Part shown: positions 4,025 through 27,042 of the stretch, piece after piece
How the letters are laid out: the number at the start of each line of letters is the position of its first letter
Position numbering within the stretch: the stretch's first letter is position 1
Assembly (NCBI GenBank): GCA_026391315.1
Contig: JAPLDT010000056.1
Location: forward strand, 1 to 39,371
DNA: 39,371 nucleotides
Reading direction: 5' to 3'
Source of the DNA: Bacteroidia bacterium
Lineage (GTDB): Bacteria > Bacteroidota > Bacteroidia > Bacteroidales > Prolixibacteraceae
Position numbers and translations under genes: made by a program
Notes under the pieces: generated by a model
Database searches by the model: none
What the model was told of the DNA's origin: nothing
Seen by the model: the letters and a program-made list of their open reading frames with translations, nothing else

Positions 4025-4102
4025 TAATTTGATTTTTAAAGGCCAAATGGAATACCCACATTATCATTTTCGGTTGATCTAAAAATTTCTAATGGGTATT
4101 TC
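4025..4102 (-). promoter_or_regulatory. Conserved 78-bp leader element, copy A (before susC-like gene)
   Basis: Read on the minus strand it begins GAAATACCCAT, continues through GTGGGTATTCCAT and ends in CCTTTAAAAATCAAATTA, 7 bp before the SusC-like ATG. Copies B (21931-22009) and C (26965-27042) match it over the whole length; A and C agree at roughly four of five positions. GAAATACCCA and TGGGTATTCC are inverted repeats (9 of 10 pairs) about 35 bp apart, so a long-loop stem or a two-site binding palindrome is possible. Its function is not known to me. Confidence 0.75.
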
Positions 4103-4160
4103 ATAATAATATACTGGTTATCAATTAATCATATCAATTCTATCCTAATTGCGATAGCTG

Positions 4161-5096
4161 CTATTTAACCACTTCAAAGGTTAGAATCAGCGCATGGGTG
4201 TTCTTGGGAAGATCACCTGGGGAGGCCGCCATAAACATTACAAGCCTCATCGAATTATCTGTGACTTCCTTAACAATCACTTTTCTTTGAAAATCCATAA
4301 ACCCAATAAATTCGGTTCCTGAAAAATCGAGTGTACTTACACCAGGATAAGTTACAACCCCTCCGGCGCCATACACTGAAGGAACTTTGAAGTCTTCCTT
4401 TTCGACATAAGTAAAAGTAGCCCCGGTTTGCGGTGTATATTTTCCCGTACATAGGCCAAAATCAGCACCATTGGCATTCACAATTCCCGCTCCTCCGGTA
4501 GTCACATATTGATAAACAATGCCGCCAAATGATGCGCCGTCAGCTTTAACATCATGCGAATACTTACCGTTAAAATAAAAAGTATAGGTGTCATTGTACA
4601 CTTCGCCCATACCCAGACCGGTACCGAAAATACCTGCCGGGAGGGGATCCGGTGTGCCGCTTACGGTAGAAAAAGCTGCGTCTGCATTAGCAAACTTATC
4701 ATAAGGGGAAGATCCTGAAGCAAGTTTCCATGTTTTTCCTTTAACAGCGTTTACACCACCCGTCATTAAGACATATGGAGTCAATGAAACAGCAAGGGTA
4801 GCTTTGGAAGAAGCAGTATCACCCTGGGCGTTGGTTCCAATCAGTTTGACGTTGTAATACCCTCCATCTTTATAAACATGAACAGGATTCATCTCTGTAC
4901 TGGTTGTCCCATCCCCAAAATCCCAGTTCCAGCTCTCAACGTGTTTTGTCAAGGCGGTAAAGGCAGCCTGTTTGGCAACAACGCTGTAAAATAGTCCTAC
5001 CTGAGGCGGATCATTTGATGCCTCCTTTTTGCACGATTGGAAGAGTATCATTCCAATAGCAAATGCAAAGCACAACAATAGAAATTGTTTTTTCAT
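4161..5096 (-). CDS. PKD-domain surface lipoprotein
   Basis: This 311-residue lipoprotein has a signal peptide with lipobox LFQSC (Cys22) followed by charged KKEAS, which in Bacteroidota is compatible with surface export. A PKD domain spans about residues 35-105, with the hallmark WNWDFGDGTTSTE and a following PVHVYKDGGYYNVKLIGTN. The rest (about 110-311) is a beta-rich region with no motif that I recognise. PKD domains usually act as spacers or glycan/protein binders in secreted enzymes. Its place between GH92 and SusC resembles the surface glycan-binding proteins of polysaccharide utilisation loci, but that role is inferred from context. The ATG start is supported by the signal peptide beginning right there. 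Confidence 0.8.
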   Translation of the reverse strand: MKKQFLLLCFAFAIGMILFQSCKKEASNDPPQVGLFYSVVAKQAAFTALTKHVESWNWDFGDGTTSTEMNPVHVYKDGGYYNVKLIGTNAQGDTASSKATLAVSLTPYVLMTGGVNAVKGKTWKLASGSSPYDKFANADAAFSTVSGTPDPLPAGIFGTGLGMGEVYNDTYTFYFNGKYSHDVKADGASFGGIVYQYVTTGGAGIVNANGADFGLCTGKYTPQTGATFTYVEKEDFKVPSVYGAGGVVTYPGVSTLDFSGTEFIGFMDFQRKVIVKEVTDNSMRLVMFMAASPGDLPKNTHALILTFEVVK

Positions 5097-5133
5097 AGTT
5101 AAAGTTAATTGGTTAATAATTAGATATTTGTAA

Positions 5134-5169
5134 ACTCAGACATTTTTTTTAAACAATAATTGTCTGAGT
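5134..5169. repeat. 9-bp inverted repeat upstream of the PKD gene
   Basis: ACTCAGACA (5134-5142) and TGTCTGAGT (5161-5169) are perfect inverted repeats around an A/T-rich 18-bp spacer, in the 292-bp gap between GH92 and the PKD gene. It could be an operator or a weak terminator for GH92. Neither is proven by the sequence. Confidence 0.4.
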
Positions 5170-5388
5170 ATTTTAAATGCACGAAAACCAGAAATTTTAG
5201 TCGATTACCTCGCTAGCCTAAAATTTTAACATTTGAATTCAAAAATTAACGAATTGTCACACTTACAATATTAGTTAAAATATTCATAATAGATGATATT
5301 TTGAGGAAATCTTTTGATATATTTACAAAATATGCAAAAAATCATAGGAATGGGTTAATATTTAATCAATTCTTTGATTGAATATTGT

Positions 5389-7725
5389 CTAGTTGTTCAT
5401 CCTTACCGGCAGATAACTCATTTCAAATTTTAATATTCCTCCGTTGGCTATTTGCTGATGGTTGAGTCTGAAACTACTCAAAAGTTTGCCGTTGAGCCAG
5501 ATTTTTGATACATATCTGTTCTTTGGTGAATAGTTATCAGTTACTACTTCGAGGATCTTATCACCCAGGTGAATGGTCGCCTTTATAAACATCGGAGCAC
5601 CCAGCTCATAATAATCGGAACCTGCAATCGGATAAAGGCCCAGCGAGGCAAAGAGATACCACGAAGAGAGCGTTGCACCATCATCATTCCCATCAACTCC
5701 CTCGGCATTTACATCGTATTTGTTGTCCAGAATCCATCCCGACCATTTCTGTGTCAGATCAGGTCTGTGGGCTTCATTGAACAGATAGGCCGAATGAATA
5801 TCCGGCTCGTTGCCATGCCAATAGTAACAACCCGGATTCCAGCTGCTCATGGTTGGATCCGACTTTTCGAAAAAATCATTGAGTTCCCTGGCAAAAGCCT
5901 CATCTCCTCCAAAAAGAGTGATCAGTCCCTGTGGATCATAAGGTACTGCGAATCTCCACTGCAATGCGCTACCTTCGACAAAATCTTTGGTGTATTTTCC
6001 GTCTGTATCAAAATAGGACAACCGCAACGGTTCAAAAGCTTTTGAAAACACACCTTTGGAATCGCGCGACTGAAAATACATGGTAACCGGATTCCAGACA
6101 TTCTTATAATATTGCGCATGTTCGTAAAAAAGCTTTGCATCCTCCTTGTATCCAAGAGAATCAGCCAGAATAGCTATGGCATGATCGGCCCAGGCATATT
6201 CGAGGGTGCGCGAGACGGCCTGGTCCATCAGATCGGTCGGACAATAGCCATATTGGTTGTAAGCCTCAATTCCTCTCCTCCCACCAAACCGCGCACCCTT
6301 TGGTGTCGGATTCAAGGCCAGAAATTTCATCCCTTCGTAGGCACTCTTTACATCAAAATTGCGAATTCCCTTCTGGTAAGATTCAGATATAACCATGTCA
6401 GCCGGTGAGCCCAGCATCGAACCTGTGTATCCATTACCAGAAGGCCATCTGGGTAAATATCCGCCTTGTTCCTTCATTTTTACAAGTGATACAAGCATAT
6501 CACGCTGCTCTTTGGGTGCGATCAATATGTATAATGAATGAAGTGTTCTGAAGGTATCCCAAAGAGAAAGGTCGGTATAATAGTTGAACCCTTCGGTTTT
6601 GTGCACTTTTTTGTCAAACCCTAAGTAATCGCCGTTCACATCCTGAAAAAGAGTGGGCATTTGAAAGGAACGGTAAAGCGCTGTATAAAAGATTATTTTG
6701 GTCTTCTCATTGTCAAAAACTGGTTCAATCAGAGCGAACTTTTCTTCCCATTTGCTCTTACCTGCCTCTACCAATGCATCAAAGCTTAATCCGCCGGTTT
6801 CCGTTTCCAGATCCTGCCTGGCATTTTCGATGCTCACATGCGAAATTCCAATTCTTAGGCCAATGGGTTTCTGTGTTTTGTCAAATTTAAAATCCACTCC
6901 CAGACTCTTTCCTGATCCTTGACGCTGATCCGAAACCGGGGAAACTCCATCCAGGATCACCGACCGCGAAAAGGAACGATCAAAACGTCCAAACAGGTAT
7001 ACTTTGATACCGCCATACCTGCTTGCAAAGGTGCCGAACGTCTTTACCTCAGCCGAAAATTCCGTTTTGTTTGGATCAATTGTCACACTGCCACTCTCGA
7101 TATCCTTGTCGCCAAGCACACTACAAACATCCAGTAACAGATGAGGTTCTGCTTCATTCGAAAATGTATACCGGTGTATTCCTGTTCGCATGGTGGCCGT
7201 GAATTCGGCTAAAACATCCGGTTGATTCAACTTTACAGCATAATATCCGGGAAAGGCACGTTCATTTTCGTGCCGAAACGAGGAATAGCGACCCTCCTGA
7301 TAATCCTTCCAGCCATTATCACTTGTCGCCGGAATGATTCGGAAATGACCGCCATCGGTAGCGCCCGTGCCGCTCAGCCGCGTATGGCTAAACCCAATAA
7401 TCTGATTATCGGGGTAATAGTACCCTGAAGTATTCATCGCCTTCTTTCGAAACAGGGACGATTCGGTATCAGGACTCAGCCGAACAACCCCAAATGGCAT
7501 GGAGGCCCCTGGGAAATTGTTGGCACAAACCCAGAAATAGCCACCGGTTCCGATGAAGGGAACTACATTTCGACCAAGCCGACCTGGTTCGAAGGATGTT
7601 TTCAGTTGCCCGAATGGTTGGTGGTCCCGGTAGGTAAAATAGGCATAGAGTGAGCCAATGAACAAGATTGCTATCAAAAGCAACACTCCAAATCCGATCA
7701 GAATTCCTTTGAGAAATTTCTTCAT
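5389..7725 (-). CDS. GH92 family alpha-mannosidase-like glycoside hydrolase
   Basis: GH92 enzymes are Ca2+-dependent exo-alpha-mannosidases, mostly acting on alpha-1,2/1,3 mannose. This 778-residue protein has the family N-terminal signature IGTGGYFWVCANNFPGASMP (about 58-77) with PFGVVRLSPDT, then WDTFRTLHSLYILI, GNEPDIHSAYLFN with the expected acid Glu near residue 640, and GNDDGATLSSWYLF near 679-692 in place of the usual GNEDCGQMSAWY. Residues 7-29 form a hydrophobic helix without an obvious cleavage site, so it may be anchored to the inner membrane on its periplasmic side instead of being secreted freely. The length is normal. It heads a run of minus-strand genes (PKD lipoprotein, SusC, SusD). 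Exact linkage specificity cannot be read from the sequence. Confidence 0.9.
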   Translation of the reverse strand: MKKFLKGILIGFGVLLLIAILFIGSLYAYFTYRDHQPFGQLKTSFEPGRLGRNVVPFIGTGGYFWVCANNFPGASMPFGVVRLSPDTESSLFRKKAMNTSGYYYPDNQIIGFSHTRLSGTGATDGGHFRIIPATSDNGWKDYQEGRYSSFRHENERAFPGYYAVKLNQPDVLAEFTATMRTGIHRYTFSNEAEPHLLLDVCSVLGDKDIESGSVTIDPNKTEFSAEVKTFGTFASRYGGIKVYLFGRFDRSFSRSVILDGVSPVSDQRQGSGKSLGVDFKFDKTQKPIGLRIGISHVSIENARQDLETETGGLSFDALVEAGKSKWEEKFALIEPVFDNEKTKIIFYTALYRSFQMPTLFQDVNGDYLGFDKKVHKTEGFNYYTDLSLWDTFRTLHSLYILIAPKEQRDMLVSLVKMKEQGGYLPRWPSGNGYTGSMLGSPADMVISESYQKGIRNFDVKSAYEGMKFLALNPTPKGARFGGRRGIEAYNQYGYCPTDLMDQAVSRTLEYAWADHAIAILADSLGYKEDAKLFYEHAQYYKNVWNPVTMYFQSRDSKGVFSKAFEPLRLSYFDTDGKYTKDFVEGSALQWRFAVPYDPQGLITLFGGDEAFARELNDFFEKSDPTMSSWNPGCYYWHGNEPDIHSAYLFNEAHRPDLTQKWSGWILDNKYDVNAEGVDGNDDGATLSSWYLFASLGLYPIAGSDYYELGAPMFIKATIHLGDKILEVVTDNYSPKNRYVSKIWLNGKLLSSFRLNHQQIANGGILKFEMSYLPVRMNN

Positions 7726-7805
7726 GATAATATCCTATTATTTAAAATTCATTTAAACATTTATATTTCAATTACTTATCAAATTTTTATATAACCTGTT
7801 GGGTT

Positions 7806-7858
7806 TAAGGTATTGTAGAAAATTAGTGATTGTCCATTCTCCTCTACCTGTTCAGGTT
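7806..7858 (-). repeat. REP-like palindromic element, copy 1
   Basis: On the minus strand it reads AACCTGAACAGGT, a 22-bp spacer, then ATTTTCTACAATACCTTA. The same layout recurs at 16006-16057 (AACCTCTACGAGGT, 20-bp spacer, ATTTTCTACAATACTTTA). It overlaps the end of the signal-peptide stub at 7844-7951, supplying that stub's last codons and stop. Confidence 0.55.
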
Positions 7859-7951
7859 TAGGACAGCCCTGGTTTCAGTTTGGGCTGACAGGTTAATATA
7901 GGCAACAATCAAAAGGAAAGTTACACTAAATAAGGTACTTATGGTTTTCAT
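7844..7951 (-). pseudogene. 35-residue signal-peptide stub of a lost secreted protein
   Basis: An ATG at 7951 opens a 35-codon frame whose first 24 residues, MKTISTLFSVTFLLIVAYIN followed by LSAQ, form a textbook Bacteroidota signal peptide cleaved after Ala or Gln. Only about 11 residues follow before TAG at 7844-7846. Those last codons coincide with a REP-like palindrome, which suggests that the gene body was replaced or deleted at the repeat. The original product cannot be identified. It could alternatively be a very small secreted peptide, but nothing supports that. Confidence 0.5.
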
Positions 7952-8304
7952 GAATATTCGTTAATTGCAACAGGGTCGTTTCGGTTATACGACAAGGGAT
8001 TCGATCCAAATTTATAAAAATTTGGCTGATAATTCTATAGGTATTTTACCATTTGAGCTCCTTTTAATTAGCAAACAGTGAAAAAAATTTGACTTCTCCT
8101 ATCGCTGTCAATGCCTGATTCATTCAATTCCAAAACATGTTAAAACATCTATATACATTTATATATCAACCATATGTGAATTAATGTTATCTTAATATTG
8201 AATATCTGATTTGTTAATTTTTTTTCGACACCTTTGAAAGTGATTAGGGTTCCACCAGAATACTTTCCGTACAGATATACTATATTTAACTGAATCAAAA
8301 TGAC
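7952..8304. other. A/T-rich intergenic gap
   Basis: About 350 bp between the divergently oriented GH92 side and the hppA relic. I see no gene, no terminator-like hairpin and no clear TTTG-N19/20-TAnnTTTG promoter. A weak -7-like TATATTTA lies at about 8281-8288. Confidence 0.5.
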
Positions 8305-8991
8305 ATGGTTGATGCGATTTTTTGGGTGATTCCAATCTCTTCGATTGTCGCTTTGTGTTTTGCTTATTATTTCTATCGTGACATGATGAGCTACAGTGAG
8401 GGGACTGACTTAATGAAAAAAATTGCCAAACATGTGCGGATAGGCGCAATGGCATACCTTCGTCAGCAGTACAAAATTGTAGCACTTGTCTTTGTTTTTC
8501 TGGCACTCTTCTTCGCCTTTCTGGCTTATGGCCTGAAGATTCAAAATCCCTTCGTACCAATTGCTTTTCTAACGGGTGGATTTTTCTCAGGACTGGCCGG
8601 ATTTTTTGGAATGAAAACGGCTACTTATGCCGCAGCACGTGCAGCCCATGCTGCCAATCAATCACTGAACAAAGGACTGGTGGTTGCTTTCAGAAGCGGT
8701 GCGGTAATGGGTCTGGTGGTGGTCGGATTAGCCTTGCTAGACATCTCCTTTTGGTTTGTTTTTCTTAACTGGATCTATCCTGCAGCAGATACGATCGACG
8801 GATCCAATCTTAACATTATTACCACAACCACTTTGACCTTCGGAATGGGAGCCTCCACACAGGCGCTTTTTGCCCGGGTTGGCGGGGGTATCTTTACCAA
8901 AGCTGCACAAAATCTGATTAAACTGATGACCATGGTTTCCATTGTGATGGTGGGAGTTACCCTGTCGATGAACCTTTTGATCTATTTTTAA
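8305..8991 (+). pseudogene. hppA: Membrane-bound pyrophosphatase relic with a large in-frame internal deletion
   Basis: Residues 1 to about 200 match the N-terminal part of ion-pumping pyrophosphatases: EGTDLMKKIAKHVRIGAMAY, FRSGAVMGL and the segment GASTQALFARVGGGIFTKAA. In intact enzymes (about 700 residues) that segment leads into the catalytic DDPRNPATIADNVGDNVGD loop. Here it runs directly into NLIKLMTMVSIVMVG, which matches the extreme C-terminus of the family (normally after DTSGPSLNI). Roughly 500 central residues, with all the pyrophosphate and Mg2+ ligands, are missing, yet the frame is kept. The 228-residue product would be a membrane protein of about six or seven helices with no enzyme activity. 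A genuine deletion and an assembly collapse are both possible. Confidence 0.8.
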
Positions 8992-9226
8992 TCAGTCCGG
9001 ATATTTTACTTCGGTTTTTCATAACAAAATAAAAGTCACCTTCGTATAAAATCAAAAAGGTGTCTCAGAAGAAAATTTAACCACAAAATTGCCTAATATT
9101 GAGCATCTGAATAAAAAATGAAATAACCTTGCTTTGGTAATTTCCAGGTAGGTTAAAAAATTTCTCGATCCTTTTTTGAAGAGGTCGTGTACGGCAAATA
9201 ATAAAAACTATTATACCTATCATATT

Positions 9227-10240
9227 ATGGCAGATCTTAGAACAACATTCATGGGGGTTGAGTTAAAAAATCCCATTATTCTTGGGGCTTCGAGCCTTGT
9301 AGAAGATCTCAATGCTATCAAAAAAATTGAACGTGCAGGTATTGCCGCAATTGTATACCGCTCACTCTTCGAAGAACAAATTAATCTGGAACAGATTCAG
9401 CTCGATGACCAGGTGGGTGAATATAGCTACCGAAACGCGGAGATGGGCAATATCTTTCCGGAAATCAAACACGCCGGTGCAGGGGAACACCTTTACAACC
9501 TCACAAAACTTATCAAAACGGTTAACATTCCAGTATTTGCGAGCCTCAATGCGATTTATGATCAATCCTGGCAAGATTATGCGGTTCAATTGGAAAAGAC
9601 TGGTATTGCGGGCCTTGAACTCAATTTTTACGATGTACCGACTGACGCACTGAGTGACAGTGCCAAAATCGAATCGCACCAGATTTCAATTCTGAAGAAA
9701 TTGAAGAAGCTGGTGAAGATTCCGATCAGTGTCAAACTCTCTCCCTTTTATGCAAATCCGCTCAACTTTATTGCCCAGGCTGATAAAGCCGGAGCTGAAG
9801 GTGTCGTGATTTTCAATCGTTTTTTCCAACCTGAAATCAACATCGAAAACGAAGAGTTCTTCTTTCCGTTCGATCTCACCCACGAAAAAGATTACCAGAT
9901 CACTTTACGATTTGCCGGCCTGCTTTTTGGCAATATCAAAGCCGATATCTGTGCCAGCCGTGGCATTTCGGACGGTACTGATGTGATCAAAATGGTGCTT
10001 GCCGGAGCAAGTTCTGTCCAGGTTGTCAGCACCGTATACAAGAACAAGGCAGCCCATATTACACAGATGATTGAGACCCTCGAAGAGTGGATGGATGCCA
10101 AAGGGTACAAAACCATCAACGATTTCAAAGGGAAATTGTCCATGAAAAAGAGCAAGGAACCTTATGCCTACCGAAGGGCACATTACGTCGATATTTTGAT
10201 GAAATCGACGGAGATATTTAAAAAATACCCGATGGTCTGA
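9227..10240 (+). CDS. Dihydroorotate-dehydrogenase-like flavoprotein
   Basis: This is a TIM-barrel FMN protein of the PyrD superfamily, starting MADLRTTFMGVELKNPIILG (an upstream in-frame GTG/TTG-type start adds a poorly conserved tail, so ATG 9227 was chosen). GLELNFYDVPTDA replaces the ELNxSCPN segment of true dihydroorotate dehydrogenases, so the usual catalytic Cys/Ser loop is lost. ISVKLSPF and the phosphate-binding GISDGTDVIKMVLAGASSVQ near the C-terminus remain. It is better called dihydroorotate dehydrogenase-like than pyrD. It precedes the hydrogenase genes but ends in its own strong terminator, so it is probably transcribed separately. Its substrate is unknown; a role in electron transfer is only a guess. 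Confidence 0.85.
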   Translation: MADLRTTFMGVELKNPIILGASSLVEDLNAIKKIERAGIAAIVYRSLFEEQINLEQIQLDDQVGEYSYRNAEMGNIFPEIKHAGAGEHLYNLTKLIKTVNIPVFASLNAIYDQSWQDYAVQLEKTGIAGLELNFYDVPTDALSDSAKIESHQISILKKLKKLVKIPISVKLSPFYANPLNFIAQADKAGAEGVVIFNRFFQPEINIENEEFFFPFDLTHEKDYQITLRFAGLLFGNIKADICASRGISDGTDVIKMVLAGASSVQVVSTVYKNKAAHITQMIETLEEWMDAKGYKTINDFKGKLSMKKSKEPYAYRRAHYVDILMKSTEIFKKYPMV

Positions 10241-10279
10241 TCATAAAATAAACCGGTGATGCCGGTTTTTTTATGATCA
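10238..10279 (+). terminator. Rho-independent terminator of the PyrD-like gene
   Basis: AAACCGG and CCGGTTT form the core hairpin followed by a T run. Outer arms TGATCATAAAA and TTTTATGATCA extend the stem and include the stop codon of the gene. The near symmetry also allows function in reverse. Confidence 0.8.
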
Positions 10280-10353
10280 AATTGAGAGAAACCCGCTATT
10301 TTCAAAATTTTGTACCATTTGTTAAAAAAGATGATATAAAACATGTTATATTA

Positions 10354-10385
10354 TTTGTATGCTGTGAATGAATAATTTACTTTAG
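10354..10385 (+). promoter_or_regulatory. Candidate promoter for the hydCBA operon
   Basis: TTTG at 10354-10357, 20 bp, then TACTTTAG at 10378-10385, one mismatch from the Bacteroidota -7 consensus TAnnTTTG. It lies after the upstream terminator and about 43 bp before the hydC ATG. Confidence 0.45.
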
Positions 10386-10428
10386 TCGAACCGAATCCGG
10401 TATTTTTAAATCCCTAAATTTTACCAAA

Positions 10429-10899
10429 ATGGATTCACTGCACAAACGAATTATCGCCTTGGCCGATCTCCATGGCCGGACCCGAGAGAGCCTGTTGCCT
10501 ATTCTTCAGGGCGTTGTTGAATACGACAACTATCTCTCACAAAAATCGATGGTAGAAATTTCAAAGGAGCTGGATCTCCCGGCTTCCGAAGTTTATGGTA
10601 CGGCAACCTTTTATTCGTTTCTTGAACACAGGAAGATGGGGAAATTTACCATCAGGGTCTGTAAAACCATCTCCTGTTCAATGAAGGGTAAAAACCAGAT
10701 TTTACTGGCCATCAAAGAGATGCTGAAAATTGATATCGGACAGACGACACAGGATGGAAGATTCAGCCTGGTGGAGACCAACTGTCTGGGATGGTGCCAC
10801 AAGGCGCCTGCCATGGTTATCAACCACGAAGTCTTCACTGAACTGACACCCGAAAAAGTTCGCGGAATCCTGGGCGAATACATGAAAAAAGAGATTTGA
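10429..10899 (+). CDS. hydC: NADH-linked [FeFe] hydrogenase, NuoE-like [2Fe-2S] subunit
   Basis: This 156-residue thioredoxin-fold ferredoxin carries electrons between the flavin subunit and the hydrogenase. It contains the NuoE four-helix start, VYGTATFYSFLEHRKMGKF and the cluster cysteines CKTISC (CX4C) and CLGWC (CX3C), followed by PAMVINHEVF. Length and motifs are standard for HydC/HndA. It is the first of three structural genes, separated from the NuoF-like gene by 120 bp containing a short tandem repeat. The order NuoE-NuoF-HydA is the usual one for trimeric NAD-dependent [FeFe] hydrogenases. Confidence 0.93.
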   Translation: MDSLHKRIIALADLHGRTRESLLPILQGVVEYDNYLSQKSMVEISKELDLPASEVYGTATFYSFLEHRKMGKFTIRVCKTISCSMKGKNQILLAIKEMLKIDIGQTTQDGRFSLVETNCLGWCHKAPAMVINHEVFTELTPEKVRGILGEYMKKEI

Positions 10900-10942
10900 T
10901 GTGATGATGTGTTGATGTGTTGATGTGTTGATTTGATGATGA
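10897..10942. repeat. GATGTGTT microsatellite between hydC and hydB
   Basis: Consecutive imperfect copies of GATGTGTT/GATGATGTG run from the hydC stop into the spacer. No hairpin or gene is evident. Copy-number change could alter the spacing of the two genes, but an effect is not shown. Confidence 0.7.
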
Positions 10943-11019
10943 AAGATAGCCTGGTTTTTAATCATGATCGAAAATGCAAATACAGTTTTATTGCTTCACA
11001 ATACTAAAATCCCCAAGTT

Positions 11020-17805: not shown

Positions 17806-17811
17806 TTTTTC

Positions 17812-19192: not shown

Positions 19193-19243
19193 TAGTTCCT
19201 CAGTATAGAATCAATATATCTGAAAAATATTAATACCACAATT

Positions 19244-20194
19244 GTGCATTCAGTATTTAAAAACCTTGGAGTCCTTCTGATATTTTTGGCGTTGTTTTCA
19301 GGATGCCGGTTCTTCAAAGGAGATCCCTACCGCAATACCACCATTTCGGGCAAGAGTGTCATCGCGGTAGATGAAACTTTCCGTCCGGTGATGGAAGCCG
19401 AGATTGAACTTTTCAAGGCAATTTACGGATATTCTGATATAGATGCCAGGTATCTGCCCGAACCTCAGGTTTTTGATCTTTTGCTCAGGGACAGTGTTCA
19501 AATGATCGTTGCCTCACGTATGTTGCGTGCAGAAGAAATTTCGGTTCTGAACGGTCGCAAACTCTTTCCCAAACAGCTGAAAATTGCCACTGACGCGATC
19601 GCCCTGATCGTTCATCCTTCCTGCAAGGATTCTCTTATCTCGTTGAAACAGATCAAGGCTATTCTAAGCGGTAAAATTGTTACCTGGAACCAGCTCAGTC
19701 CGGAGTGCCCTACCCGCCCAATCAAACTTCTTTTCGACAACAAAAATTCGGGAATCGTCAAATACCTCGCAGATTCACTTTGTCACGGAGCGTTTTCTGC
19801 CGCCAATGCTTCTGCCATGGAGTTCAACCGGGAGGTAATCGAATATACTGCCTCCCATCCTGATGTCCTTGGATTTGTTTCGACGAGCTGGATTGGCAAC
19901 AGGAACGACTCGCTGCACCTCTCTTTCCACAAAAAAATAAAAGTTGTTTCCGTCAGCGAAGCGGATGCGCCCACACCCGATAATAGCTACAAACCATACC
20001 AGGCCTATCTTCTGGGCAATATGTACCCTCTTTCGAGATCTGTGTACATGATCAATGCGGAACCCAGAAGCGGCCTTTCAACAGGATTGGTCTCCTTTGT
20101 CGCCAGCGACAAGGGTCAGCGAATTATCCTTAAATCAGGGATCCTTCCTGCGGTAGCGCCGACCAGGGTCATCAATGTCAGACCGCATTTGTAA
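19244..20194 (+). CDS. PstS-like periplasmic solute-binding lipoprotein
   Basis: The 316-residue protein begins at GTG 19244 with a lipoprotein signal and lipobox LFSGC (Cys21). The fold resembles phosphate-type binding proteins (PBP_like_2): FKAIYGYSDIDARYLPE, LKQIKAILSGKIVTWNQLS, GIVKYLADSL and GLVSFVASDKGQRIILKSGI. It follows tonB by 51 bp and precedes a TPR gene by 33 bp. No pstCAB transporter genes are nearby, so phosphate import by an ABC system is not indicated. It may sense or present a ligand to the TonB machinery, but that is inferred only from location. Confidence 0.8.
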   Translation: MHSVFKNLGVLLIFLALFSGCRFFKGDPYRNTTISGKSVIAVDETFRPVMEAEIELFKAIYGYSDIDARYLPEPQVFDLLLRDSVQMIVASRMLRAEEISVLNGRKLFPKQLKIATDAIALIVHPSCKDSLISLKQIKAILSGKIVTWNQLSPECPTRPIKLLFDNKNSGIVKYLADSLCHGAFSAANASAMEFNREVIEYTASHPDVLGFVSTSWIGNRNDSLHLSFHKKIKVVSVSEADAPTPDNSYKPYQAYLLGNMYPLSRSVYMINAEPRSGLSTGLVSFVASDKGQRIILKSGILPAVAPTRVINVRPHL

Positions 20195-20227
20195 AAAACA
20201 AACAAAGTATCCCGGATAAAAACAATT

Positions 20228-21943
20228 ATGAAGTACTTGATATTTTCACTTTTAATCTTCGGGTCATCGATCATCACCTGCAACGCACAGGAAAAGGATT
20301 TGAGTGCACCAAATTACCTTCAGGAGTTTCAGCCTGGCAAGGCAAGGAACTGGTTTCAGCAAAAGCTGAAAAACAATCCGGAAGATGCTGCCGCCATGAT
20401 CGGTCTGGCCAATACCCTGCTCTCATTCCAATCCACTGATAGTGCTAAAATACTCTTCAGAAAAGTACTTACTGCAGATGCCAAAAATCCGTTCGCGCTG
20501 GCAGGAATTGGCCTGGTTGCCTGGATGAACAATGATCGTGCCGGTGAATCTGCCTATTTTGAGCGTGCCAGACGGGCCGATAAAATCAATCCTGAAGTAT
20601 ACTGTGCAATAGCTGAAGGATGCCTGGACCTGCCCAAACAAGATACCGTCACCGCACTGACTTACTTAAAACAAGGACTCGATCTCAATCCAAAATACGC
20701 CCGGCTTCACTTCATTACCGGGAAGCTGGAAACCTCAAAAAAGAATTATGGAGCCGCAGCAAATGCCTATGAAAGAGCCATTTTCTTTGATCCAAAATCT
20801 GCTTTAGCATACCGGAATCTGGGTACGATCCTCTATTATTCCAGATCCTACAGGGAGGCGTTAACGGCCTTCAACAAATCAGTGGCACTCGATCCGAACC
20901 AAATCCTGGTATACAAAAACCTTGGCGATCTTTATTATACTGTTGCGAAGTATGCTGAGGCAGAGCATTCCTACCAAACATACATGGAAAGAGCAGAAGT
21001 TTCGAACGATGACAAGGAGCGGTTTGCATTCACCCTTTTCTTCAACAAAAAATACAGGGAATCAGAGACGCTGTTGGAACAACTTCAGCAAATCAGCCAC
21101 GACGAATCACTCCTTCTGCGGATAAGAGGATATATTGCTTATGAAACAGCTGATTATCAAAAGGGAGTCGAACAGATGATCAAATTTTTCAAACTTCATG
21201 ACACGCATAAAATCATTGCTCTGGATTACAGCTATTATGCCAAACTCCTTCAGAAAACCGGCAATGAAGTTTTGGCAATGGATAATTTCAGGAAGGCCAT
21301 TTCAACAGATCCATCCAGAACTGAGAACTATGAGGAACTTGCAAGGCTTGCCGCAAAAAACAGCCTGCACCTGGAAGCTGTTGCCTGTTACAAAAAGATG
21401 ATCGATCTGGGTGCGGACAAGGTTGTCAACAGTTTTCTGATCGGAAAAGAGTATTATTTCGAAGGGGAGCTCTGGAGGGCCAGACTGGATTCGCTGATGC
21501 AACTGCGAAAAAGCAAAAACAACCCACCTTCTGACAGTACAGAAGTTAAAAAATCGATGACCCTGTTCTACGCAAAAGCCGACAGCGCCTTCACGGTAGT
21601 GACCAGATTAAACAGCGATTATGCAGGAGGTTTTATCTGGAAAGGAAGGATCCATGCAACACTTGATCCCGATGGCATCACAACAGAAGCCAAAGATGCT
21701 TACCAAAATGCCCTGGTTTTACTGGAGAAAGCAGATCCTGAAAAAAATCGTAAATCCATCATCGAATGTTACAGATACCTTGGATCTTACTATTATCTTG
21801 GATATGATCGGCTTTACAAATCGGATAAAAAGGCAGCCGGTGAAATGCGGTCAAAAATGATCGAATGCTTCACCAAAATTTTAAAGCTGGATCCTTCTGA
21901 TGTACAGGCAAAAGATGTACTTTTCAAATTGAAATACCCATGA
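20228..21943 (+). CDS. Secreted tetratricopeptide-repeat protein
   Basis: This 571-residue protein has a signal peptide ending near CNAQ (residues 18-21), then about ten TPR units with the usual spacing of 34. Clear examples are NPFALAGIGLVAWMNNDRAG, SALAYRNLGTILYYSRSYRE and NQILVYKNLGDLYYTVAKYA. It would act as a periplasmic protein-binding scaffold, probably with the TonB/ExbBD complex since it ends that operon. The final codons KYP-stop lie inside the 78-bp conserved element that precedes the next gene, which suggests that the gene's end was set by that element. Confidence 0.88.
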   Translation: MKYLIFSLLIFGSSIITCNAQEKDLSAPNYLQEFQPGKARNWFQQKLKNNPEDAAAMIGLANTLLSFQSTDSAKILFRKVLTADAKNPFALAGIGLVAWMNNDRAGESAYFERARRADKINPEVYCAIAEGCLDLPKQDTVTALTYLKQGLDLNPKYARLHFITGKLETSKKNYGAAANAYERAIFFDPKSALAYRNLGTILYYSRSYREALTAFNKSVALDPNQILVYKNLGDLYYTVAKYAEAEHSYQTYMERAEVSNDDKERFAFTLFFNKKYRESETLLEQLQQISHDESLLLRIRGYIAYETADYQKGVEQMIKFFKLHDTHKIIALDYSYYAKLLQKTGNEVLAMDNFRKAISTDPSRTENYEELARLAAKNSLHLEAVACYKKMIDLGADKVVNSFLIGKEYYFEGELWRARLDSLMQLRKSKNNPPSDSTEVKKSMTLFYAKADSAFTVVTRLNSDYAGGFIWKGRIHATLDPDGITTEAKDAYQNALVLLEKADPEKNRKSIIECYRYLGSYYYLGYDRLYKSDKKAAGEMRSKMIECFTKILKLDPSDVQAKDVLFKLKYP

Positions 21944-22009
21944 GAAAATATTCACTCCAATCGAAAATGATTATGTGGGTATTCCATCTGGCCATTAATA
22001 AACAAATGA
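21931..22009 (+). promoter_or_regulatory. Conserved 78-79 bp leader element, copy B (before prolyl oligopeptidase)
   Basis: It starts GAAATACCCATGAG, contains TCGAAAATGATTATGTGGGT and ATTCCATCTGGCC, and ends near AACAAATGA, 31 bp before the peptidase ATG. It is one base longer than copies A and C. Its first 13 bases are also the last codons and stop of the TPR gene. Confidence 0.75.
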
Positions 22010-22040
22010 ATTATATCAACCAATTAAACTAACAATTAAC

Positions 22041-24200
22041 ATGAAAAAGCTCCTAACCTTCACTTTTGCCTTTTTTTGCCTTGCTACCTCCTATGCGCAG
22101 TTCAACTATCCGGCTACCAAAACAGTCGATGTCAAAGAGACCTATTTTGGGGTAACCTACAAAGATCCCTACCGCTGGCTTGAAGATTTTAAAGATCCGC
22201 AGGTCGTGAGTTGGTTTAAACAACAGGCAACCTTCAGCAATGACATCCTGAATAAAATATCCGGAAGGGATGAACTGGTTGCCGAGTGGAAAATGCTCGA
22301 CAAGCTGCAACCTCCACGGATTGGTGGCAGGACTTATGAGAACGGAAGAATATTCTACCGTAAAACAATGCCGGGCGAAAATCTAAGTAAACTATACTAC
22401 CGTGAAGGCTATGAGGGTAAAGAGCAGCTTCTTTTTGACCCAGACACTTATATCAAAGGGAAAAAACTGTCCATCCAAAGTTCCATGCCTAGTTATGATG
22501 GTAAAAAAATTATAATCGGCTATTCAGAAGCTGGTGCGGAAATATCAACCATCAAAATATTGGATGTTGATACCAAAACATTTTTACCGGAAACCATCTA
22601 TCCAAGCTGGTTTGGCCCCATCAGCTGGACGTTTGACAACAAGGCATTTACCTATTTTTCCCAGAAAACCGGCGACAATACGAGTCCTGAATTTGAACTG
22701 AATACCAAAACAAAATTACACAAGTTGGGGGATGAGGTTAAAAATGATGTTGATTTTTTCAGCAACGAAAGTTATCCAAAAATGGATATCAAAGCCAACG
22801 ACCTTCCATTTGCTAGCCTGAGCAAGGACTCCAGAGATTATATTTTTGCTGATCTGTCTAACGTACGAAGCGAAATGTTCACCTACTATGCTCCGGTTTC
22901 CCAATTTAATTCTGGAAAAATTGACTGGAAGATTTTGTGCAAACCGGAAGACATGATTGTCAGGGGCAGGGAGATCATCAAAAATGACGTCTATGCCATT
23001 ACGCATAAAAATGCAAAAAACTATCAGCTGGTTCATACCACATTACCAAATCCAAACTGGGACAAGGCAGACATCGTGGCGCCTGAAAAAAAGGATCAAA
23101 CACTTGAATCAATCACCCATTGCAAAGATTATCTGTTGCTAACCTATAGCGACGGCATCAACAACCACATTTTCAAATACAACCTTGCCACCAAAAAGAC
23201 AACTGAAATAAAATTGCCATACACTGGAACCGGGTATGTTTTTTGCCTGGACAACACCACCAACAACTGTTTTGCCGGAATTACCTCCTGGAACAGGCCA
23301 TATACCGAATACAATTTAAATGCAGTGACCGATCTGTTCACGCCGAGTACATTTAACAAACCGCCGGTTTATCCGGCTGCCTACAAAGATCTGCTGGTTG
23401 AAGAAGTAGAGGTAAAAGGGCACGACGGCACCATGATCCCATTGTCCATTATCTACCGGAAAGGAACAGTCTTTAATGGCAAAAATGCTTGTCTGATGGA
23501 CAGTTATGGAGCCTATGGAATGAGCATGTCACCATATTTCAACTACCTTGAAAATTCGTTGGCCATCAAAGGGGTTGTCATTGCTATACCACATGTACGG
23601 GGAGGCAGCGAAAAAGGTGAAAACTGGTACAAAGCAGGATACAAAACCACCAAACCCAATACCTGGAAAGATTTCAACAGCTGTGCCGAGTACCTGATCC
23701 AAAAGGGATATACTTCCGCCAATAAATTGGCAGGAACTGGTACCAGTGCAGGGGGTGTTTTAATCAGCAGGGCCATTACGGAAAGACCTGATTTGTATGC
23801 TGCTGCTATCTGCAATGTTGGATGTGCCAATGCGATGCGTATGGAAACAGCGCCCAACGGACCCGCAAACATTCCTGAGTTTGGAACAGTAAAAGACAGC
23901 GTTGAATGCAAAGCTTTGTATGAAATGGACGGTGTTGCACATGTTAAAAAAGGAACAAAATACCCGGCTGTGATATGCATCGGTGGTTGGAACGATCCGA
24001 GGGTCATAGCCTGGGAGCCCGGGAAGTTCGCAGCGGCATTACAAAATTCCACTACTTCAGGAAAACCGGTCATCATGAAAGTGAATTACGACAACGGTCA
24101 TTTTACAGAAGACAAATCTGTCACCTTTGGCAACTTTGCCGACCAATTTGCATTTGCAATGTGGCAATGCGGACATCCTGATTTTCAGTTGAAGAAATAG
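22041..24200 (+). CDS. Secreted prolyl oligopeptidase (S9A family)
   Basis: It cleaves short peptides after proline, here in the periplasm, since the N-terminus MKKLLTFTFAFFCLATSYAQ is a signal peptide. The N-terminal part FNYPATKTVDVKETYFGVTY, then DPYRWLED, is diagnostic of S9A and leads into a seven-blade propeller (about 70-430). The alpha/beta-hydrolase domain holds the nucleophile in GTGTSAGGVL (Ser569), the Asp in GGWNDPRV (Asp652) and the His in NYDNGHFTED (His687). VIAIPHVRGGSEKGENWYKA is the family loop. The length, 719, is normal. It has its own leader region (element B), so it may be regulated apart from the TonB operon. Confidence 0.94.
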   Translation: MKKLLTFTFAFFCLATSYAQFNYPATKTVDVKETYFGVTYKDPYRWLEDFKDPQVVSWFKQQATFSNDILNKISGRDELVAEWKMLDKLQPPRIGGRTYENGRIFYRKTMPGENLSKLYYREGYEGKEQLLFDPDTYIKGKKLSIQSSMPSYDGKKIIIGYSEAGAEISTIKILDVDTKTFLPETIYPSWFGPISWTFDNKAFTYFSQKTGDNTSPEFELNTKTKLHKLGDEVKNDVDFFSNESYPKMDIKANDLPFASLSKDSRDYIFADLSNVRSEMFTYYAPVSQFNSGKIDWKILCKPEDMIVRGREIIKNDVYAITHKNAKNYQLVHTTLPNPNWDKADIVAPEKKDQTLESITHCKDYLLLTYSDGINNHIFKYNLATKKTTEIKLPYTGTGYVFCLDNTTNNCFAGITSWNRPYTEYNLNAVTDLFTPSTFNKPPVYPAAYKDLLVEEVEVKGHDGTMIPLSIIYRKGTVFNGKNACLMDSYGAYGMSMSPYFNYLENSLAIKGVVIAIPHVRGGSEKGENWYKAGYKTTKPNTWKDFNSCAEYLIQKGYTSANKLAGTGTSAGGVLISRAITERPDLYAAAICNVGCANAMRMETAPNGPANIPEFGTVKDSVECKALYEMDGVAHVKKGTKYPAVICIGGWNDPRVIAWEPGKFAAALQNSTTSGKPVIMKVNYDNGHFTEDKSVTFGNFADQFAFAMWQCGHPDFQLKK

Positions 24201-24360
24201 GGTAAGACAATTTAACCGTAAATGGGTTCAAAGGCAAAACATGAAGGACCAAATATTTCATCCCTACGGGATTACGGTTCTATTATCTATATATTTCTAT
24301 AAATATCAGATCCCTAGCGGGATCGGAACCAACAGAACTAGATATTATTCAGGTAATTGT
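24201..24360. repeat. REP-like palindromes leading into the tandem array
   Basis: ATCCCTACGGGAT at about 24260 and ATCCCTAGCGGGAT at about 24310 are small palindromes of the same CCC-TA-GGG type found in the array units and in the MITE-like elements. A degenerate partial array unit precedes 24361. No gene is present. Confidence 0.55.
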
Positions 24361-24718
24361 GAGTCCCGCTAGGGATGCAATATTTATAGAAATACATATC
24401 AGGCTGAGTGCGAGTCCCGCTAGGGACATAATATTTATAGAAACACATATCAGGCTGAGTGCGAGTCCCGTTAGGGACGTAATATTTATAGAAATACATA
24501 TCAGGCTGAGTGCGAGTCCCGCTAGGGACGTAATATTTATATAAATACATATCAGGCTGAGTGCGAGTCCCTCTAGGGACGTAATATTTATAGAAATACA
24601 TATCAGGCTGAGTGCGAGTCCCGCTAGGGACGTAATATTTATAGAAACACATATCAGGTTGAGAGCGAGTCCCGTTAGGGACGACATATTTATATAAAAT
24701 GACGTTATATTTATAGAG
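24361..24718. repeat. Tandem array of seven 51-bp units, each with a CCC-N4-GGG palindrome
   Basis: Units start exactly 51 bp apart at 24361, 24412, 24463, 24514, 24565, 24616 and 24667. Each reads GAGTCCCGCTAGGGAC, GTAATATTTATAGAAATACA, TATCAGGCTGAGTGC with few changes. GTCCCGCTAGGGAC is a hairpin; the fifth unit has CCCTCTAGGG. A degraded partial unit ends the array. There are no unique spacers, so it is not a CRISPR. It lies directly before a transposase relic of the REP-associated kind. Confidence 0.92.
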
Positions 24719-24784
24719 AAAATCTATTTAGTCGATCCATATCCTCTGCAAATATTTATGCTTATCCCCTTAATTGAAAGCAAT

Positions 24785-24958
24785 ATGGCAAATACCTACA
24801 CTCAAATGTACATTCAGTTTGTTTTTGCTGTTCAGAACAGGATATCCCTTATTCATCCGGATTGGAAAGATGAACTTTACAAATATATAACCGGGATTGT
24901 ACAAAACAACAAACATAAACTGATAGCAATCAACGGGATTCCGGTTCTATATTCCTGA
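24785..24958 (+). pseudogene. Truncated REP-associated tyrosine transposase (IS200-like, Y1 family)
   Basis: MANTYTQMYIQFVFAVQNRI and SLIHPDWKDELYKYITGIVQ then NNKHKLIAINGIP are the first 55 or so residues of the Bacteroidota Y1 transposase family. Intact members continue with PDHVHILVG, whose His-x-His motif binds the metal, and later the catalytic Tyr. Here the frame leaves the family at GIP and ends VLYS-stop, so both catalytic elements are missing. The 57-residue product cannot be active. It sits beside the 51-bp palindromic array, the expected partner of such an enzyme. Confidence 0.85.
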
Positions 24959-24968
24959 TATCGGAAAA

Positions 24969-25006
24969 CACAAAGGGCACAAATTGATCATTTTGTGCCC
25001 TTTGTG
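24969..25006. terminator. 15-bp perfect hairpin, probable terminator of the TlpA-like gene
   Basis: CACAAAGGGCACAAA and TTTGTGCCCTTTGTG pair without mismatch around an 8-base loop, just after the stop of the minus-strand TlpA-like gene. The T-rich arm makes it plausible in both directions. Similar GTGCCTTTGTG text is a common intergenic repeat in this phylum (compare 26428-26510). Confidence 0.6.
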
Positions 25007-25035
25007 TGCACTTTGCGTCCTTCGTGGTTAAATAA

Positions 25036-26274
25036 CTACTTTTCATCCAACAATTGGTCAATCAATCCATTAAATTCCTTCTTAAACTCCTCATAGAATT
25101 TCCCGGTAGCAGGTCCGCTGAATCCTGAATGAACCTTCCTGACATTTCCTTTCTTATCGATAAAAATGGTAGTCGGGAAGGAGGCAATTCCGTTCAGTGC
25201 AGGCAGGGCTTTGGATGCGTTGTCTTTGCCCGATTGTCCGGCGACAAGTATTTCGTATTGAATACCCAAACGCGTTTTCAGGTTGGTCAATGTCTTTTTT
25301 GCCGCTTCAAAATCACCATTCCGTTCAAAACCCAATCCAATAATCTCGACTCCGCGTTGCTTGTTCTCTTTGTACCACTGAGTCAAAAATGTATTCTCAT
25401 CGAGGCAGTTTGGGCACCAACTACCCAAAATTGTGACTACCACCACTTTCCCGGTATATCCTGAATCGCTCAGCGCGACCTGCTCACCATTCAAATTTGG
25501 GAAGGTAAAGTCAATGGTCGTGTAGCCCTCCTTGAGATAGGTAACCTCGTATGCATCTGGCAAAGCAGCCTTTGAATTCCGAACTCCACTGATTTCAGTT
25601 GTTCTCCTGGGAGTTACAAATTCACCTGTAAATGTACTGTCAGAAGAAAATTTACCTTTTAATAGATATGGAGTTGAACCACCAAAGGCTGAAAGCAAAA
25701 ACCTCTTTCCTTGCACCGCCCCTTCCAGAAAGCGATAATCGCCTGTAGTCGTAAGGATGGATCCGGAAATCAACGACGCTTTCTGTTCAAAATTGCCCAC
25801 TGTTTTTTCAGCCTGGTCACCACTGCCGATTACCATATCCCAGGTACCGTTCAGCGAAACCTCAGGCTTTTCAGGGCTCACAGCAAATCTTGGAAACTTG
25901 CCATATTTTGCTGTAAATGGCACTCCCCCATCCGGTTTATCTGTTGCCGTCTTCACAAATCGTCCAGAAAGTTGATCTCCATCAACTCTTGCTTTCAAAA
26001 CAGCATCGTAAAGATCGATTGGAATGAATACTGAATCATTGCGATAGGTAATATTTTTTAGTGGAAATTTGTCTGCCCCATTGAGCAGGTATACAGTTGT
26101 GCCTTCAGATGTTTGCCCATTTACTTTAAAAAGAAACGGAATTTCATTCTCAGCCAGCGAGAAAACTCCTCTCCAATCCCCTTCTTTCAACAGTTTTCCT
26201 TTTTGCTGGCAAGAGACGAGACAGCAGGTAACCACAAAAGGGATGATCCATTTGATCCATCTTGAATTGTTCAT
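25036..26274 (-). CDS. TlpA/ResA-like thioredoxin-domain lipoprotein
   Basis: 412-residue lipoprotein with lipobox CLVSC (Cys22). The N-terminal half (about 30-255) is a beta-rich domain of the sort that precedes TlpA-like domains in Bacteroidota. The C-terminal redoxin domain has the active site SWCPNC (Cys287, Cys290), GLGFERNGDFEAAKK and the cis-proline loop SFPTTIFID. It would carry out thiol-disulfide exchange in the periplasm, such as cytochrome or exported-protein maturation. It is a single gene on the minus strand, facing away from the next redox cluster. The WCPNC dipeptide is unusual compared with WCGPC and suggests a tuned redox potential. Confidence 0.88.
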   Translation of the reverse strand: MNNSRWIKWIIPFVVTCCLVSCQQKGKLLKEGDWRGVFSLAENEIPFLFKVNGQTSEGTTVYLLNGADKFPLKNITYRNDSVFIPIDLYDAVLKARVDGDQLSGRFVKTATDKPDGGVPFTAKYGKFPRFAVSPEKPEVSLNGTWDMVIGSGDQAEKTVGNFEQKASLISGSILTTTGDYRFLEGAVQGKRFLLSAFGGSTPYLLKGKFSSDSTFTGEFVTPRRTTEISGVRNSKAALPDAYEVTYLKEGYTTIDFTFPNLNGEQVALSDSGYTGKVVVVTILGSWCPNCLDENTFLTQWYKENKQRGVEIIGLGFERNGDFEAAKKTLTNLKTRLGIQYEILVAGQSGKDNASKALPALNGIASFPTTIFIDKKGNVRKVHSGFSGPATGKFYEEFKKEFNGLIDQLLDEK

Positions 26275-26688
26275 TTTATAGTATTAAGTTTATTCATCTA
26301 ACAAGAGGGACAATGCAAAAACTCCTGATAATCAGCATTACAAGCATAACCCGGCCAGATGTAAAGATTATTTCAGAAAATTACTCATTTTCAAGAGACC
26401 ACAAAAGTAATGGATTGAAAGCATTTTTTCATTGTGAAGCCTTCGTGTCCTGGTGTCTTGGTGGCAAGAAAAGAATGCCAGAAAGGCTCAAAGGCACAAA
26501 GGTTTCACTAAGAATCTTGCACCCAATGCAACAAGGACAAAGAAATGCGAAATTGAGATATTTTATTGACATACTGGACATTACAATCAAACATCAAAAA
26601 TATTCAGTGATATTTAAACGATTTAGGTGATACTATAGCGATTTATCATTTTGATTGGTTACCTTTGCAGCATTAAGAAGACAAGCAA
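26275..26688. other. Intergenic gap with a degenerate inverted repeat
   Basis: 414 bp with no supportable gene. Between about 26428 and 26510, GTGAAGCCTTCGTGTCC and its imperfect complement CTCAAAGGCACAAAGGTTTCAC form a long, worn inverted repeat of the same family as the hairpin at 24969. A frame through it has no codon or motif support. Confidence 0.5.
26660..26667 (+). promoter_or_regulatory. Candidate -7 box for the DUF6132 gene
   Basis: TACCTTTG fits TAnnTTTG and lies 21 bp before the ATG, a typical distance. The -33 region is poor. Confidence 0.4.
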
Positions 26689-26934
26689 ATGGAAAATAAC
26701 ATAGATACCGATCCGAAAGAAAAAACCCTGAAAGAACTTCTTGCAACCTGGAGTTTCTGGAAACCTTTGGTGGCCGTTGCCATCGGGGGAACCCTTGGAT
26801 TTCTCAATTATTATTATGTCGGTTGTACCTCCGGTAGTTGTGGCATTACCAGCAATCCCTACCTCAGCATAGCTGTTGGTGGAATGATGGGATTGTTTGT
26901 GGTAAAAAGTCCCTGTGCCAGAGGAAGATGTTAA
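26689..26934 (+). CDS. DUF6132-family small membrane protein
   Basis: 81 residues with two predicted helices (about 24-45 and 60-76). VGCTSGSCGITSNPYLSIAV is the signature of the DUF6132 family, with two conserved cysteines, and the tail CARGRC adds two more. The function of the family is unknown; its members often lie beside rhodanese, thioredoxin and DUF2892 genes. Here a thioredoxin lipoprotein, DUF2892, a second thioredoxin and a 4Fe-4S protein follow on the same strand, so a sulfur or thiol redox role is inferred. Confidence 0.8.
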   Translation: MENNIDTDPKEKTLKELLATWSFWKPLVAVAIGGTLGFLNYYYVGCTSGSCGITSNPYLSIAVGGMMGLFVVKSPCARGRC

Positions 26935-26964
26935 TCTCAAACAAAATCAAATATCAGAAAAAAT

Positions 26965-27042
26965 GAAATACCCATAAGAATATTTACATACAACCGTAAA
27001 TGAATATTTGGGTATTCCATACGACCTTTAAAAAACAAATTA
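26965..27042 (+). promoter_or_regulatory. Conserved 78-bp leader element, copy C (before thioredoxin lipoprotein)
   Basis: It begins GAAATACCCATAAG, contains CCGTAAATGAATATTTGGGT and ATTCCATACGACC, and ends TTTAAAAAACAAATTA, 7 bp before the ATG, the same distance as copy A. A possible five-codon frame ATG AAA TAC CCA TAA opens it. Confidence 0.75.

Follow-up and report, generated by a model that had tools for sequence, protein, structure and literature searches.

The stretch of DNA analysed here (the window; 39,371 nucleotides of contig JAPLDT010000056.1, from a member of the Prolixibacteraceae) carries three copies, A, B and C, of a short repeated element, which lie at or upstream of a SusC/RagA TonB-linked receptor gene, a prolyl oligopeptidase family gene and a thioredoxin-like gene, respectively (Table 1). 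An earlier note on this DNA had described a 78-79 bp unit placed 7-31 bp before each ATG, and had proposed that it is a cis-regulatory leader defining a regulon of exported proteins, with a mobile sequence that lands before genes as the alternative. The three copies, their direction and the exactness of their shared blocks were borne out by the sequence. The unit is longer than described, however, at about 88-91 nt, and only the start codon of the oligopeptidase gene (22041) falls outside its copy, whereas copies A and C include the start codons of their genes as their own terminal ATG. Copy B was rejected as a start-codon copy, its final ATGAA not being the start of the oligopeptidase gene. 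As the earlier note had recognised, copy B forms the end of the upstream TPR gene: its left end supplies the last codons, and in five relatives, inspected by eye, the TPR gene ends with no such sequence. We conclude that the element is probably a non-autonomous mobile sequence of about 88 nt, which inserts directly 3' of NTGAA and strongly prefers ATGAA; its mobility, ends, structure and bias toward start codons are well-supported observations.

Table 1. Positions in the window of the three element copies, their parts and the adjoining genes
Feature	Position	Strand	Score, family or remark
Copy A, complete element (GAAATACCC...CAAATGAA)	4013..4102	-	100.1 bits (covariance model)
Copy A, terminal ATG (SusC start codon)	4017-4015	-	
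Copy A, left target ATGAA, chromosomal side	4100..4104	-	GAA common to element end
Copy A, H1 left arm	4093..4100	-	pairs with 4051-4058
Copy A, H1 right arm	4051..4058	-	
Copy A, central TTCCAT	4047..4052	-	read from sequence
Copy A, H2 left arm CATTTG	4044..4049	-	
Copy A, H2 right arm CAAATG	4015..4020	-	includes SusC start codon
SusC/RagA TonB-linked receptor gene, downstream of copy A	562..4017	-	TIGR04056, above cut-off
TPR gene, upstream of copy B	20228-21943		TPR identity confirmed
Copy B, shortened right side, without nn pairing	21931..22010	+	84.2 bits
Copy B, left target TTGAA	21929-21933	+	in last codons of TPR gene
Copy B, H1 left arm	21933..21940	+	
Copy B, H1 right arm	21976..21983	+	
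Prolyl oligopeptidase family gene (Pfam S9 peptidase), downstream of copy B	22041..24200	+	PF02897, PF00326
Copy C, complete element	26965..27054	+	103.6 bits (covariance model)
Copy C, terminal ATG (thioredoxin start codon)	27050-27052	+	
Copy C, left target ATGAA	26963..26967	+	
Copy C, H1 left arm	26967..26974	+	pairs with 27009-27016
Copy C, H1 right arm	27009..27016	+	
Copy C, central TTCCAT	27015..27020	+	
Copy C, H2 left arm CATACG	27018..27023	+	
Copy C, H2 right arm CGTATG	27047..27052	+	includes start codon
Thioredoxin-like gene, downstream of copy C	27050..27508	+	TIGR01068, PF00085

The host genome (G000; 4.69 Mb in 111 contigs) contains many more copies. A two-block pattern, GAAATACCCAT-N30..60-TGGGTATTCCAT, matched at 38 places (20 forward, 18 reverse), and its reversed control matched at none. 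When the 38 matches were read with their flanks, the common sequence ran on to ...AAACAAATTATATAC-nn-ATGAA, giving a unit with the order hairpin H1, TTCCAT, hairpin H2 and terminal ATGAA. A covariance model built from 36 copies detected at least 120 matches of 67-112 nt at E≤0.01, a lower bound in that 150 of 3,262 first-look candidates were scored; a model of H2 gave 128 matches, with few places beyond the 120. Further copies were likewise found when the covariance search was extended to related genomes. By eye, the aligned copies form subfamilies that differ in the H1 stem (AATACCC/GGGTATT, AATAGCC/GGCTATT, ACGAGCC/GGCGAGTT, AACCCTC/GAGGGTT and AATGAGCATG/CATGCGAATT). At some loci (L028, L030, L035, L015, L154 and others) the H1 region has been substituted or extended by small palindromes (CCGCCAGCTGGCGG, CCCGACATGTCGGG) or a GCTTCGCTGATCTTCGATTCC block, as if short hairpins had been exchanged between repeat families.

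RNAalifold, given the alignment alone, returned both of the hairpins that had been drawn by hand, namely H1 with 8 pairs and H2, in which CATnnG pairs with CnnATG around a conserved, A-rich loop. The inverted repeat GAAATACCCA/TGGGTATTCC of the earlier note is indeed the H1 stem, but it contains one A.C mismatch. In the 36-copy set the H1 pairs are invariant, partly because the search pattern had fixed them; among 34 distinct rows, one nn pair of H2 shows changes on both sides in 11 and the other in 16. For the covariation score and the share of paired cells, 500 shuffles each of the 36-copy set, the H2 set and a set of 105 copies never reached the observed values. In the 105-copy alignment, which was itself fitted to the model, changes on both sides occur at 8 of 14 pairs, and the numbers of pairs and of pair types are exceptional as well (3 and 0 of 500 shuffles). 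A test free of such fitting was provided by 123 matches in the named genomes, which were identified by a pattern that puts no constraint on nn and nn': both nn pairs are Watson-Crick in 107 of them, compared with a shuffled mean of 24.0 and a maximum of 41 in 10,000. Shuffling of the H1 arms in the same set (478/708, shuffled mean 232) carries a bias, since the left arm had been selected to fit, and the 105-copy test is therefore relied on instead; a loose H1 label was assigned to 118 of the 123 matches, in some cases falsely (e.g. L280). Folded singly, copy C and the copy at L013 gave z values of -3.8 and -3.2 as RNA and -2.6 and -2.5 as DNA, while those of copies A and B were -1.4 and -1.1 as RNA and -1.1 and -1.0 as DNA. 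The covariation tests show that the hairpin pairs are kept by paired changes, and the structured nature of the element, with covarying pairs, is upheld. A conserved leader peptide was also considered and rejected, by eye only: short frames are open in the main subfamily, and indels and the other subfamilies break them.

The two ends of the element are not equivalent. Among 116 copies (4 of the 120, whose flanks lay outside the sequence analysed, were left out), the right end is ATGAA in 112, and the left end is ATGAA in 82, AAGAA in 10, GTGAA in 8, TTGAA in 5 and another sequence in 11. A left ATGAA was likewise found in 102 of the 118 copies measured in the named genomes, the remaining 5 of the 123 matches lying too near the start of a stretch. 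The inequality indicates that the left NTGAA is the old chromosomal target and that the right ATGAA belongs to the element. An ordinary miniature inverted-repeat transposable element (MITE) moved by a DDE transposase, with ATGAA as a 5-bp target duplication, would account for the presence of ATGAA on both sides of most copies, as well as for a small, mostly intergenic sequence in high copy number. However, the ends are unequal, a sequence other than ATGAA being present at 34 of 116 left ends and at 4 of 116 right ends, the right ATG pairs with the internal CAT, the ends are direct rather than inverted repeats, and the copy at C48:189845 of the host genome has GTGAA on the left and ATGAA on the right; we regard this explanation as very unlikely.

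Apart from one A.C mismatch, the internal TTCCAT is complementary to ATGAA, and its CAT can pair either with the left ATG, which lengthens H1, or with the right ATG, which forms H2; both arrangements can be drawn for copy A. Pairing with the right ATG is shown by the covariation of H2. Pairing with the left ATG, in copy A as elsewhere, is suggested by the target preference: the prevalence of ATGAA at the left end agrees with pairing to CAT, at a target that hardly varies and so lies beyond covariation.

Comparison with related species uncovered sites that lack the element. At site A, G006 has the same PKD-domain upstream gene and SusC gene, facing each other, with a single ATGAAATATATAAGC start and no element, and at site C of G001 the upstream and thioredoxin genes are parted by ...AAATAATACCAATGAAGC, again with no element. 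A third copy, at C48:189845-189935 of the host genome, is an 88-bp net insertion relative to G003, G005 and G006 near the 3' end of the upstream gene; these three species read CCGTTGA(A/G) and then the gene end, and the host reads CCGGTGAA and then the element with its ATGAA. The place occupied by two adjacent copies in the host (C48:194280-194462) reads as empty in G006 and G007, and G003 has there, at a contig end, a copy with a different nn pair, so that the position is common to two species. In addition, 12 adjacent pairs of copies have one ATGAA in common, and in 11 of them both members match copies elsewhere better than they match each other (in the twelfth, one member does), which argues for serial insertion rather than duplication. 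The element is thus dispersed and has inserted since the related species split, as the alternative raised in the earlier note would have it. At the place of the adjacent pair, G005 has a stretch reading GAAACCCTCAT...AATGAGGTT (L399, about 1376-1501), which may be the remnant of an old element.

The covariance model gave at least 48 matches in G001, 65 in G003, 72 in G004, 11 in G005, 40 in G006 and 28 in G007, all of them sister species, and none in the sister species G002 among the candidates scored; with the H2 model the counts ranged from 0, again in G002, to at least 91. A pattern scan of GTDB returned at least 115 stretches. The 80 titles among the matches listed are presumably all of Bacteroidota, judging by names (two names checked), and include Algoriphagus, Lunatibacter, Cyclobacterium, Mariniphaga, Geofilum, Marinilabilia, Paludibacter, Prevotella and Odoribacter, along with Chitinophaga, Parapedobacter, Flavobacteriales and others. 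Under strict filters, 17 of 198 genomes drawn across the phylum, the host included, have H2 matches at E≤1e-4. The element is therefore widespread but patchy in Bacteroidota. G143, a genome in one contig from another family, has copies that differ little from one another and are apparently young; eight stretches were fetched (L445-L452), of which seven are in register and six of these seven are at the start of an open reading frame (ORF). Plasmid and phage collections gave no match with one copy as query, and the H2 pattern was found in 1 stretch of the viral contigs.

We examined the position of the copies relative to start codons by scoring a copy as lying at an ORF start when the frame that begins at its terminal ATG is open for at least 100 codons or reaches the end of the available sequence. 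Of the 104 non-tandem copies (none directly following), 62 sit at ORF starts, as do 53 of the 74 that have a left ATGAA; in the named genomes, 84 of 118 copies are at ORF starts, 5 are tandem and 29 are elsewhere. The background, 400 kb of the host genome chosen to avoid the listed copies, contains 1,537 ATGAA sites, 1,205 of them inside ORFs, 111 start-like and 221 intergenic. Compared with the non-coding sites (111/332), the 53/74 represents an enrichment at starts with an odds ratio of 5.0 (P=2.9e-9), figures that are approximate, as ORFs were called mechanically and copies and background were judged by slightly different start criteria. The preferred place and direction relative to start codons are supported, and the fixed place can be attributed to a target sequence that is in itself frequent around start codons. 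A gene hit at its start codon still begins with ATGAA, now provided by the element together with an A-rich leader in front of it. The element can also insert where there is no start codon, since a copy at L320 lies inside a gene. We propose that the preference for start codons arises because genes commonly begin with ATGAA and because insertion there does little harm.

The regulon proposed in the earlier note would make the element a cis-regulatory RNA leader of exported-protein genes, with H2 hiding the start codon until it is opened by a signal or protein. The covarying hairpins, the start codon inside H2 and the shared orientation of element and gene at start sites are all consistent with such a leader, and exported proteins are in excess downstream of the copies (34/62 versus 94/286 background genes, P=0.002, in a crude test of N-terminal hydrophobicity). 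However, the excess is not significant when the comparison is made with genes that have an ATGAA start (44/109, P=0.08), and the downstream genes are functionally mixed, with NCBIfam matches above cut-off to MiaA, DnaN, LpxA, methylenetetrahydrofolate reductase (metF) and MutS2 (in its available part). The regulon was rejected on the basis of this control and these genes; the location upstream of exported-protein genes holds in the window but is not general. Nor do the remaining data favour a leader: orthologues in sister species have no copy at the sites compared, G002 has no match, the insertions are serial and unrelated, 42 of the 104 non-tandem copies are off ORF starts, and no Rfam family reached its gathering score in the four sources searched. 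The marks of a cis-regulatory leader or riboswitch, association with the same genes in relatives and a coherent gene set, were not found at the sites compared. We consider a regulon leader highly improbable, although individual copies might affect translation.

One might also envisage an element of mobile origin, many copies of which are now kept because the A-rich leader and a weak hairpin at the start codon set translation. Copies occupy start sites more often than the supply of non-coding ATGAA would predict, the H2 loop is conserved and A-rich, and the H2 pairing is intact across diverged subfamilies, all of which such retention would explain. However, the purging of harmful insertions can produce the same bias, and the pairing would also be needed if the structure serves mobility. 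We think retention for translation rather unlikely.

Several observations weigh against a mobile element of the kind we favour. No mobilising enzyme with good support was found. The host genome has 11 Y1 matches (10 Y1-type genes plus a relic in the window that scores below threshold), and no copy of the element lies within 1.5 kb of these loci (best E 0.39); Y1 genes are present in 35 of 41 genomes, many of them without the element; and no Y1 clade tracks the element among 37 proteins recovered from 43 loci. Because no Y1 gene is linked to the element or tracks it, movement as a single strand is something that we infer. No autonomous long version was seen among the copies and H2-model places read, and several of nine extra H2-model places have no clear H1 in the 160 nt upstream, which leaves some room for a long version. 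The numbers of pairs and of pair types are not exceptional in the 36-copy set (368 and 76 of 500 shuffles) or the H2 set (495 and 500 of 500), as few positions vary, and copies A and B taken singly do not fold significantly better than shuffles. In G143, GTCGCAT, GTCACAT or GTTACGT replaces TTCCAT before TGTGACC...CACATGAA; TTCC is thus not conserved there, and the general pairing unit is essentially CAT plus nn. Finally, the 42 non-tandem copies away from an ORF start count here as well.

Another possibility is that the element is a repetitive extragenic palindromic (REP)-like sequence, of atypical structure, that belongs to a REP-associated tyrosine transposase (RAYT) of the subclass-2.6 type of Bacteroidetes. 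According to the accessible part of one source (PMC6006769), atypical structures adjoin subclass-2.6 genes in Bacteroidetes and have copies elsewhere. Two copies of the element lie at and in a broken RAYT-like gene (L320), element-like sequence occurs at two places of G010 some 0.4-1.4 kb away from RAYT-type fragments, though G010 has only 3 H2 matches in all, and one H2 match of the host is preceded by 18 codons similar to the beginning of a RAYT (E=0.001, one-locus search). A RAYT is thus hinted at in three genomes. In contrast, the subclass-2.6-type RAYT of the host has an unrelated palindrome at its flanks, no RAYT of this type was detected at E≤1e-6 in the element-rich G001 and G004 (at least 48 and at least 72 matches), and search R2 in 67 Y1/RAYT loci gave 3 matches, representing two distinct places, both in G010. 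A RAYT partner is unlikely on this evidence; the RAYT wrecks near copies may be places where insertion is tolerated, or what is left of a former partner. No recurrent transposase gene was found among the ORFs of 115 named-genome loci (clusters in at least 2 loci; the 14 largest read).

Some further RAYT loci were recorded. A RAYT gene at L045 (1001-2100; subclass-2.6 type, assigned from motifs) has on both flanks the palindrome CTCCCGCGCGATTGCATCGCG, apparently its cognate REP. The element-like sequence among or near the RAYT-type fragments of G010 (C105 and C55; L386, L389, L393) has a longer H2 start (TTCCATnGAATnCCAT) and possibly represents another subfamily. At C52:31843-32007 of the host (L385, L387), a RAYT gene is cut to about its first 28 and last 28 codons, an internal-deletion derivative.

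Returning to the mobile element, we suggest that its folded single strand would be what moves, with an HUH-type (IS200/IS605-like) or comparable enzyme cutting and rejoining it in trans. The internal CAT of TTCCAT would recognise the outer ATGAA target, and CAT extended by nn and G would recognise the element's own right end through H2. We give this single-strand mechanism and its shared CAT guide, our preferred reading, roughly even chances. Translation may also be affected secondarily, the start codon being inside H2. More tentatively, and with something short of an even chance, the element may represent a start-codon-directed family, spread in Bacteroidota, in which one CAT guide serves for both the target and the element's own ATG, so that it finds and rebuilds start codons and hands genes their translation start. 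The machinery that mobilises such a family may differ from the Y1 transposases known so far. If true, an element that targets start codons and restores them would have an unusual way of living in gene-dense DNA without killing genes, and the reading of gene 5' ends in Bacteroidota would change, dozens of host genes (dnaN and lpxA among them) having a transposed leader. The family also constitutes a natural library of start-codon hairpins for the study of translation initiation, and compensatory mutation of its variable nn pairs offers a direct test of the recognition rule.

The window contains other repeats. A fragment of a Y1-type transposase gene (24758-24958, plus strand; PF01797, 22 bits, below cut-off) also matches places in C79 of the host and C27 of G001. 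Between it and the oligopeptidase gene lies a tandem repeat (24338-24687), probably non-coding, with minus-strand repeated units of about 17 amino acids (YFYKYYVPSGTRTQPDM-like). Just behind the thioredoxin gene, at about 27547-27770, is a dispersed repeat of up to about 200 bp with at least 13 further places in the host at 87-92% identity, and a stretch of about 90 bp at about 26425-26515, a third repeat family, has several matches at 79-87% in G007 and G004.

We found no description of the element in the literature searched, coverage of which was partial, and an earlier description is possible. Members of the IS200/IS605 family are not known to generate a target duplication. In the element, as in IS608, ISDra2 and their non-autonomous derivatives, the left target is kept, the right end is element-encoded and no target is duplicated; subterminal hairpins are present, and the nn pairing (107/123) is the candidate for right-end recognition. 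The accessible parts of one account of that family (PMC6006769; see also PMC3733652, seen likewise in part, for IS200 and REP background) describe a left cleavage and target site that lies outside the element and is kept, a right site that is the element's own end, internal guides that recognise the cleavage sites by base pairing, and subterminal hairpins. Unlike these insertion sequences, the element has no Y1 HUH transposase (TnpA) within its 88 nt, its target is a start-codon sequence, and its CAT, located 3' of H1, might serve both ends; in the family each end has its own guide, placed just 5' of the hairpin concerned. With REP sequences and REPINs mobilised by a RAYT (TnpAREP) it has in common that it is short, palindromic, mostly extragenic, present in high copy number and probably mobilised in trans. 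It differs from them in having no GTAG or GTGG at the hairpin foot (H1 begins with GAAA and H2 with CATnnG, by eye in 116 copies), in its absence from the flanks of the host's Y1/RAYT genes, and in its two unlike hairpins, fixed ATGAA right end and start-codon position. MITEs with terminal inverted repeats, such as those of Porphyromonas gingivalis in the accessible part of PMC4596501, are likewise small non-autonomous repeats of Bacteroidota, but the element has neither terminal inverted repeats nor a symmetric target duplication, and its ends are direct repeats. The TAACTGA direct repeats, as far as the accessible text on them goes (PMC4679880), are 7-nt tandem units upstream of start codons, found also in some Bacteroidetes, and they resemble the element in that many copies lie directly upstream of the start codons of genes without a functional pattern. 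In contrast to those repeats, the element is 88 nt long and folded, inserts as a unit for which empty sites exist, and includes the start codon itself.

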